A DNA stretch of 22,344 nucleotides from a virus: positions 1 to 22,344 of the IMG/VR virus record IMGVR_UViG_3300009159_002804, one strand, 5' to 3'. A model generated the notes under the pieces. That model was not told the DNA's origin and made no database searches. It saw only the letters and a list, made by a program, of their open reading frames with translations. The translations under genes were made by a program, and so were the position numbers. Positions 12,534-13,691 of this stretch are shown in pieces (positions within the stretch are counted from its first letter, which is position 1; every line of letters starts with the position of its first letter).

Positions 12534-13691
12534 CGCCAATCCTTTGCTAGCCAAGAATTGTTGTGCTGCAACTGGATCTAGCATTGATAGGTACGCTTGC
12601 TCTGCAGGCGATAATGATGCTGTATTAGGAGTACCACTTAGCACAGCCATAGCTTGTTGCATTGTCATTGGCTTTCCAAATTCTTGTAATCCCCATGCGG
12701 TCTTTGGCGCATCAGGTACTTCATTCCATGCTTTAGGATCAAATTGATCTCCTGTTTGTAATGCACGATCTCCCCAATAAAACTTACTTTGAACATCGTC
12801 TGTTGTCTTGTAGAATGGTGTAGTCTCTATCATACCAGGATTTAAGTACTTACCACCACCAGTTTGAGGACCAGGTTTAACAGGCTTTACAGGTCCAGGT
12901 TTAACAGGTACTATTGGTCCAGGTATTATAGGATCGTTTGGTCCACCAGCATCTCCTCCGTCTCCACCATCTCCACTATCTCCTGAGTCGTCTCCGCTGT
13001 CATCTCCTGTATCATCTCCGGTATCATCACCTGTATCATCTCCGGTATCATCTCCTGTATCATCTCCCGTATCATCGCCTGTGTCGTCACCTGTATCATC
13101 TCCGGTATCGTCTCCTGTATCGTCTCCAGTGTCATCTCCCGTATCATCTCCAGTGTCATCTCCCGTATCATCACCTGTATCGTCTCCAGTGTCATCTCCC
13201 GTATCATCACCTGTATCGTCTCCCGTATCGTCTCCCGTATCATCACCTGTATCTCCTGTATCATCTCCACTGTCGTCACCTGTATCTCCGGTATCGCCAG
13301 TATCGCCTGTATCTCCTGTATCGCCAGTGTCTCCAGTATCTCCGCTGTCACCTGCATCTCCAGCATCTCCAGCATCTCCTCCACTATCACCACCTGCGTC
13401 TCCACCTGCGTCTCCACCTGCATCTCCGCCAGCATCACCTCCGCCGCCGTCTCCGCCACCTCCATCGCCTCCACCTCCATCTCCTCCACCGCCATCATCA
13501 AATTCCATGAGGCCAGTGTGAGGATTGATAGCGCCAGAACCACCATGTTCTTTAAGCAACGACGCTTCTTCATCATTAATGTGTGCTACTATTGTATCAT
13601 CACCACGACCGCGTTTTCTTAGTTCAGCGGCTAGGCGTTCTAGATCTCGGTCAGTTAGTTGACTAAAGTCTATATGGTTCTGTTTCTTCAT
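12531..13691 (-). CDS. Virion-associated protein with long Gly-Asp repeat tract
   Basis: This 386-aa protein has three parts. Residues 1-64 are a charged helix plus the segment [20 protein letters not shown] and TGLMEF, a pattern I associate with structural proteins of marine podoviruses. Residues 65-250 are nearly pure Gly, Asp, Thr, Ser and Ala, first GGGGD and AGGD units, then TGD, then 21 consecutive TGDD units (148-231). The acidic tract has no Lys or Arg and could bind calcium or act as an extended spacer, although the classical DxDxDG loop is absent. A Pro/Lys/Val hinge (253-275) leads to a C-terminal domain (about 280-386). Ribosome site CAGGAATCACC. Role unknown; position suggests a tail or ejection component. 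Confidence 0.7.
12942..13499 (-). repeat. In-frame Gly/Asp-coding tandem repeats
   Basis: The tract consists of 12-base and 9-base units coding TGDD, TGD, AGGD and GGGGD. The purest part (12999-13250) is 21 units of 12 bases. Third codon positions vary between units (GAT/GAC, GGA/GGC/GGT), so the array is not a recent perfect duplication; selection on the protein sequence is likely. Copy number may vary by slippage. It makes long antisense open frames that are artefacts. Confidence 0.9.

Follow-up and report, generated by a model that had tools for sequence, protein, structure and literature searches.

The window, by which we mean the whole stretch of DNA analyzed (a complete virus record of 22,344 bases), encodes a 386-aa protein in which two conserved end modules are joined by a long acidic repeat tract. 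Our preferred reading, which we hold with slightly better than even confidence, is that the tract is a disordered anionic tether joining the two modules of a late structural protein, and that the gene belongs to a podovirus-like DNA-ejection module. Among relatives, the ends are conserved and the middle changes, the linker is biased in length and charge, the gene order is kept, and the repeat copy number varies. The gene and its parts are as follows.

12531 to 13691, minus strand: gene encoding the two-module protein of 386 aa and its acidic spacer, ATG start
13500 to 13691, minus strand: N-module, residues 1 to 64, core GRGxDTxxAHIxxxExxLLKxxGGSGxxNPxTGLxEF
12942 to 13499, minus strand: acidic tract, residues 65 to 250, net charge −74, without Lys, Arg, or Pro
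12999 to 13250, minus strand: 21 TGDD units in a row, residues 148 to 231, 12 codon spellings, all differences synonymous
12852 to 12941, minus strand: Pro-rich linker, residues 251 to 280
12534 to 12851, minus strand: C-module, residues 281 to 386, core NPGxxxxxxFYxTTxxxQSKFYWG

The sequence directly before the ATG of this gene (13691 to 12531, minus strand) is CAGGAATCACC. The initial annotation had placed a tract without Lys or Arg and with 21 TGDD units at 12942 to 13499, which was correct; one isolated unit at residues 137 to 140 brings the TGDD total to 22. The 186 residues consist of 74 Asp, 69 Gly, 29 Thr, 8 Ala, and 6 Ser and no other residue. The longest stretch of the protein free of Lys and Arg covers 216 aa (residues 48–263). 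These two residues average 9.7% in the 27 other minus-strand ORFs counted in the window, and an independent-residue estimate puts the chance of such a stretch at ∼2.5e-10, a value that conveys scale only, the tract being of low complexity. Two antisense ORFs over the tract (12938–13510 and 13081–13521, plus strand) were not taken as genes because a stop-free repeat stays open in many frames.

Relatives were collected from IMG/VR as 9 loci by the N-terminus, 12 by the C-terminus, and 27 by alignment of the C-module, on partly shared contigs; individual loci are denoted by L numbers. A reading of the ORFs revealed TGDD units between both modules in L002, L004, L013, and L014 and partly in L012. 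Elsewhere the linker is built from GE (L003), SDD (L006), partly SDAD (L015 and L016), ADDTGE with SDD (L017), DDA (L032 and partly L134), DDADDSDD (L127), Gly-rich ADSGG/ADTGG (L137), or TE with Pro-Thr (L130), and the linkers of L019 and L119 are acidic and non-repetitive. TGDD units also occur in L136 beside a C-module that is just 34% identical to that of the window. The C-module of L006 is 92 to 93% identical to those of L013 and L014, yet its unit is SDD rather than TGDD, and in a tree of 11 rows, from which L006 was left out, L004 (TGDD) clusters with L003 (GE) and apart from the window (support 100/99). These two cases indicate that the units turn over while something physical persists. 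What persists can be seen in 13 full-length relatives, a set that omits the near-identical L002 and includes related rows (L013 and L014, for example, are close), so that the counts are not 13 independent tests: the linker measures 178 to 242 aa in 12 of them and 435 aa in L130, its net charge is negative in all 13, and Lys and Arg together number 1 to 4 in 12 and 11 in L130. The linkers of L019 and L119, at −0.17 and −0.19 net charge per residue, are weakly acidic, which indicates that strong charge is not essential. The suggestion that the tract serves as an extended spacer is borne out by the conserved end modules, the similar length, the sequence-free middle, and the lack of structure in the AlphaFold2 model described below.

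Both modules are found again on large proteins of structural type in many uncultured phages, and the N-module is present in at least 502 confirmed viral stretches. The first 60 residues after the N-module motif are net acidic in 66 of 75 other proteins, net basic in 7, and free of Lys and Arg in 33; this set leans toward acidity, being drawn mainly from the best 80 of the at least 502 matches and, in part, with a search pattern (one of three) that contained acidic residues just past the motif. Compared with the rest of the same proteins, these 60 residues differ in Lys plus Arg and in Asp plus Glu (Wilcoxon 5e-10 and 7e-12, relatedness uncorrected; each protein extends 200 aa or more beyond the motif, shorter and duplicate ones having been dropped).

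The charge is also unevenly distributed along the linker. Ten of the 14 rows tested (window, L002, L003, L004, L006, L013, L014, L017, L032, and L127) follow one pattern: the density of acidic residues rises from 0.20 to 0.32 per residue in the first linker quarter to 0.43 to 0.67 in the third and then falls to 0.04 to 0.21 before the C-module. They make up the complete set of full-length rows with a dense acidic array, and at least five different repeat units are represented among them. When the order of the units was shuffled, 0 to 9 of 2000 shuffles matched the observed trend in nine of the ten rows, and the result for L013 depended on the region taken (35 or 303 of 2000). Windows of 24 aa peak at 50 to 71% acidic residues in 10 of the 14 rows and at 33% in the other 4. 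The gradient was rejected as a universal rule, since L019, L119, L130, and L137 lack it. It is conceivable, if doubtful, that the linker is a charge-graded polyanion in which selection acts on the charge profile and not on the sequence, and that this profile steers the chain relative to DNA in the capsid or ejection channel. The N-terminal part of the linker may simply be inherited, which leaves an independent origin of the gradient unproven.

The chain that precedes the C-module is of low complexity over 120 aa in 20 of the 20 proteins tested, each with 120 aa or more ahead of the module (contig-cut and duplicate proteins were dropped; 13 of the 20 are acidic-clade proteins or close relatives of these). 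The entropy of these 120 aa is below that of all 192 control windows in 18 of the proteins, and L128 and L135 fall among the lowest 6; the controls were other proteins of the window and hence of a single phage. The C-module core is also found near the end of larger ORFs in L104, L131, L132, and L135, as well as in L128 (435 aa). The chains of the first four contain 3 to 9 acidic and 0 to 4 basic residues and are rich in Pro, Val, Thr, Gly, or Ala. Because all 20 chains are of low complexity and some are hardly charged, the low-complexity chain is the general feature and strong acidity one form that it takes. The L104 ORF (L104:3434–8890) encodes a protein of 1819 aa that has the N-module close to its start and the C-module close to its end, and it gave no convincing match to Pfam or PHROG. 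It resembles the window protein in having both end modules and a low-complexity spacer before the C-module, and differs in that this spacer consists of Pro/Val/Thr/Gly repeats and is not acidic and in the hydrophobic and repeated segments, discerned by eye, that lie between the modules.

The hardly charged chains of L104, L131, L132, and L135 ahead of the same C-module bear on the idea, raised at the outset, that the tract mimics DNA. As a polyanionic mimic or decoy, it would be ejected with the genome and titrate host DNA-binding or defence proteins, or it would shield packaged DNA from its neighbors. The net charge of −74 and the dense acidic windows are in keeping with this, and Asp/Glu repeats in eukaryotic DNA-binding proteins can autoinhibit electrostatically, according to the parts of PMC10250230 consulted. 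However, the related proteins make mimicry an unneeded assumption, the tract is an internal linker of little-varying length rather than a free tail, and the gene stands amid structural genes. We therefore regard a DNA mimic as unlikely.

An AlphaFold2 model of the 386-aa protein, built on 55 aligned sequences, has a mean pLDDT of 51.9. At least 176 of the 186 residues of the acidic tract score below 50 and are modeled without secondary structure, a low score being weak evidence. The low confidence is consistent with disorder but falls short of proof. The N-module is predicted, with low to moderate confidence, to form two helices (residues 14–27 and 40–49) and a short hairpin; residues 361 to 380 of the C-module are predicted to be helical with a pLDDT near 88, and block means within this module reach 89. 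A fibre-like fold is absent from the model. A profile search of the N-module alignment against the PDB gave zero matches up to E 1, and a search of the C-module against the phage collection gave nothing significant (best E 5).

The tract could instead be a divalent-cation polymer or switch, in which Asp repeats bind Ca2+ or Mg2+, stiffen or fold, and drive directional exit or trap capsid cations. The repeats are indeed dense in Asp, and the SDD and SDAD units are reminiscent of other Asp-repeat proteins. Searched with the patterns for the EF-hand, the RTX nonapeptide (GGxGxDxUx), and TSP3, as well as for DxD, the tract contains none of these and one isolated GGxGxD. Furthermore, the spacing differs among GE, TGDD, SDD, and DDA units, a variation that is difficult to reconcile with a site-specific fold. 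The metal-binding polymer of the initial annotation is thus left without a canonical site and with possible non-specific cation binding, and we consider a cation-driven role a little less plausible again than mimicry.

The variation within the repeat bears on whether anything is selected at all. The 12 spellings of the 21 consecutive TGDD units differ at third codon positions only, and the 29 minority letters are all synonymous, whereas random changes would be expected to alter the residue in 78% of cases. In the SDD run of L006, codon positions 1 and 2 vary and the residue remains Ser. Synonymous-only variation backs selection on the protein as support and not as proof, because perfect amino-acid runs allow synonymous change only and duplicated units are not independent. 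Selection on the protein sequence, as initially proposed, thus holds within the array; across relatives it is composition and charge that persist rather than sequence. Copy number was also expected to vary between phages, and it does. L002 and the window are 99.7% identical over an alignment of 11,370 columns (11.4 kb), the only gaps of which are 15 columns that correspond to one extra GGGGD in the tract of L002, the gene being otherwise identical, and L013 and L014 differ in several unit types. Such changes in near-identical phages, along with the different units of close relatives, would be expected of neutral drift in a mutation-prone spacer in which nothing beyond solubility and reading frame is selected. 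Against this stand the 29 synonymous letters (with the caveat that the copies are non-independent and the perfect runs were picked by amino acid), the Ser codons of L006, and the negative charge and scarcity of Lys and Arg that persist in relatives, and we find drift alone to be quite improbable. An assembly artefact as the full explanation is very unlikely and was rejected, since acidic linkers lie between the same ends on contigs from several metagenomes. Nine of the 27 C-module loci (L112, L115, L117, L120, L122, L124, L129, L134, and L136) are on contigs that start inside the gene, which means that assemblers do break at this place and that exact copy numbers are soft.

The acidic gene is located in a late structural module beside genes of ejection type. 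The synteny comparison covered 13 clade loci; the 7 further loci in it matched the N-module only. The neighbors in the window are as follows.

9215 to 11740, minus strand: 841-aa gene, window copy without SLT match
11751 to 12500, minus strand: 249-aa gene directly downstream, window copy without PHROG match
14360 to 15250, minus strand: 296-aa gene without family match, also ahead of the acidic gene in relatives with contigs that extend far enough
15250 to 17403, minus strand: 717-aa virion structural protein, upstream, phrog_3287 (3.1e-20)

In all 13 clade loci, the next gene downstream of the acidic gene is the 249-aa gene, and in 12 the 841-aa gene comes after it (the L006 contig stops earlier). 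In L017 and L032, the homologue of the 249-aa product (encoded at L017:2787–3740 and L032:7325–8314) matches the virion structural protein family phrog_6121 (7.1e-14 and 1.7e-14) and has a Peptidase_S74 chaperone domain at its C-terminus. The homologues of L003, L018, and L012 scanned gave no convincing match, and the window copy gave no match to Peptidase_S74. A profile search of the 249-aa alignment against the PDB gave three matches (E 0.056–0.61) that were judged to be chance, and the model of this product (pLDDT 38) is uninformative. For the 841-aa product, the homologue in L032 contains a Transglycosylase SLT domain (PF01464, 1.7e-16), for which Pfam gave no match in the L013 homologue or the window copy.

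Other genes of the window were noted as well. A phosphoribosyltransferase-like gene (13716–14345, minus) lies directly upstream of the acidic gene and is found in 6 of 13 clade loci. A 143-aa acidic protein (7682–8113, minus; net −18) matches the DNA binding protein family phrog_3636 (7.2e-24) and, weakly, a starvation-inducible regulator family, and is found downstream in relatives too. The gene at 7181 to 7690 is on the plus strand among minus-strand genes, has a weak acetyltransferase match (phrog_1249, 0.0034), and is oriented opposite to its neighbors in 10 of 13 clade loci. Two small basic proteins (4965–5249 and 6469–6762, minus; pI 10.4 and 10.1) share an RGPT motif (KRGPTTGN, GRGPTGGG, and GRGPTKGN). 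The terminase has 405 phage-record matches, all below 60% identity, the best of which (49.6%) is described as Podoviridae. Genes for a T4-type deoxycytidylate hydroxymethylase (18123–18770, minus; PDB 1b49, 2.6e-69) and a T4-type DNA alpha-glucosyltransferase (19736–21037, minus; 1y6f, 1.2e-31) flank a MazG-like gene (19276–19671), and together they are possibly a glucosyl-hydroxymethylcytosine cassette in a podovirus-like phage. A tie between the acidic protein and these DNA-modification genes was rejected, as L013 and L014 (16.3 kb each), which extend ∼1.2 to 1.4 kb past their 107-aa gene match on the upstream side, have the protein and no hydroxymethylase match; this is a weak test, since a glucosyltransferase could be encoded beyond the contig ends.

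The gene context points to an ejection-module protein, as does the distribution of the N-module. Searches of the window protein, and of its N- and C-modules alone, against PHROGs gave zero matches and no ejection family. In the Methylophilales phage Venkman, gp46, which is annotated as hypothetical, has near its N-terminus an N-module that is 62% identical over 45 residues; the body that follows matches the DNA ejection protein family phrog_4287 (5.7e-11), and the gene lies two genes past one annotated as a stabilization protein. Here the N-module is fused directly to the ejection-protein body, and both the long acidic repeat and the C-module are missing. The 249-aa product was considered as a gp46 homologue and rejected (BLASTP E 0.073, not significant). 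In phage DSL-LC04, the N-module is within a protein annotated as a tail tape measure. Least probable of the readings is a surface stalk or tail-fibre-like tether that displays the C-module outside the virion in the manner of staphylococcal serine-aspartate stalks, for even though the SDAD/SDD linkers of L015, L016, L006, and L017 resemble such stalks and S74 chaperone domains, which are usual on fibres, occur in L017 and L032 on the product of the following gene, the N-module is also in an ejection-family-matching protein and an annotated tail tape measure, the model lacks a fibre-like fold, and the neighbor has an SLT homologue. LPXTG is the cell-wall sorting motif behind the SD dipeptide arrays of stalk proteins, and no signal of this type was found at the end of the window protein, which ends in the C-module.

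For the tether in DNA ejection, we envision a protein carried in the virion and ejected, the end modules of which would dock to different parts, such as the internal core, the tail, or a host-envelope conduit. The intervening chain, presumably disordered in solution, would let one module move tens of nanometres from the other, through a narrow channel and unfolded; 186 residues span ∼65 nm when fully extended. The charge may keep the chain soluble and off packaged DNA. A hydrophilic chain of ∼200 residues almost without Lys or Arg would suit a tether that must lie near DNA, stay unbound, and thread a channel. Under this mechanism, rough length, scarcity of Lys and Arg, and negative charge would be under selection, and the units would be free to expand, contract, and be replaced. 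The relatives provide a natural linker series in which the ends, the rough length, and the sign of the charge are kept and the repeat is rewritten, and linker swapping could directly test the physical demands that DNA ejection places on a disordered chain. We found no description of this linker in the literature searched (titles and abstract openings; open-licence PMC), and the main text of the ejection review PMC8954989 gave zero matches for "acidic," "negatively charged," and "linker."

Among known systems, Ocr-type folded DNA mimics have a compact fold with a DNA-like charge pattern; the low pLDDT and the lack of secondary structure modeled for the window tract are weak evidence on this point. 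The parts of PMC3324548 consulted describe the serine-aspartate stalk of staphylococcal ClfA as an unstable acidic tandem repeat that changes copy number in frame, features that the window tract shares. ClfA-type stalks, in contrast, are bacterial surface adhesins with unrelated ends, and the window tract is a TGDD array with no SD array. A further comparison is with podovirus ejection proteins, which, according to the portions consulted of PMC8954989, are packaged with the DNA, exit first, and form a transient envelope conduit; T7 gp16 is able to refold after being partly unfolded, which would be needed for exit via the narrow portal channel. Unlike T7 gp14, gp15, and gp16, the window protein has no detectable sequence match to those families. 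Like them, its gene belongs to a late structural cluster, near a gene with a transglycosylase-bearing homologue, and the protein would be required to pass a narrow channel.
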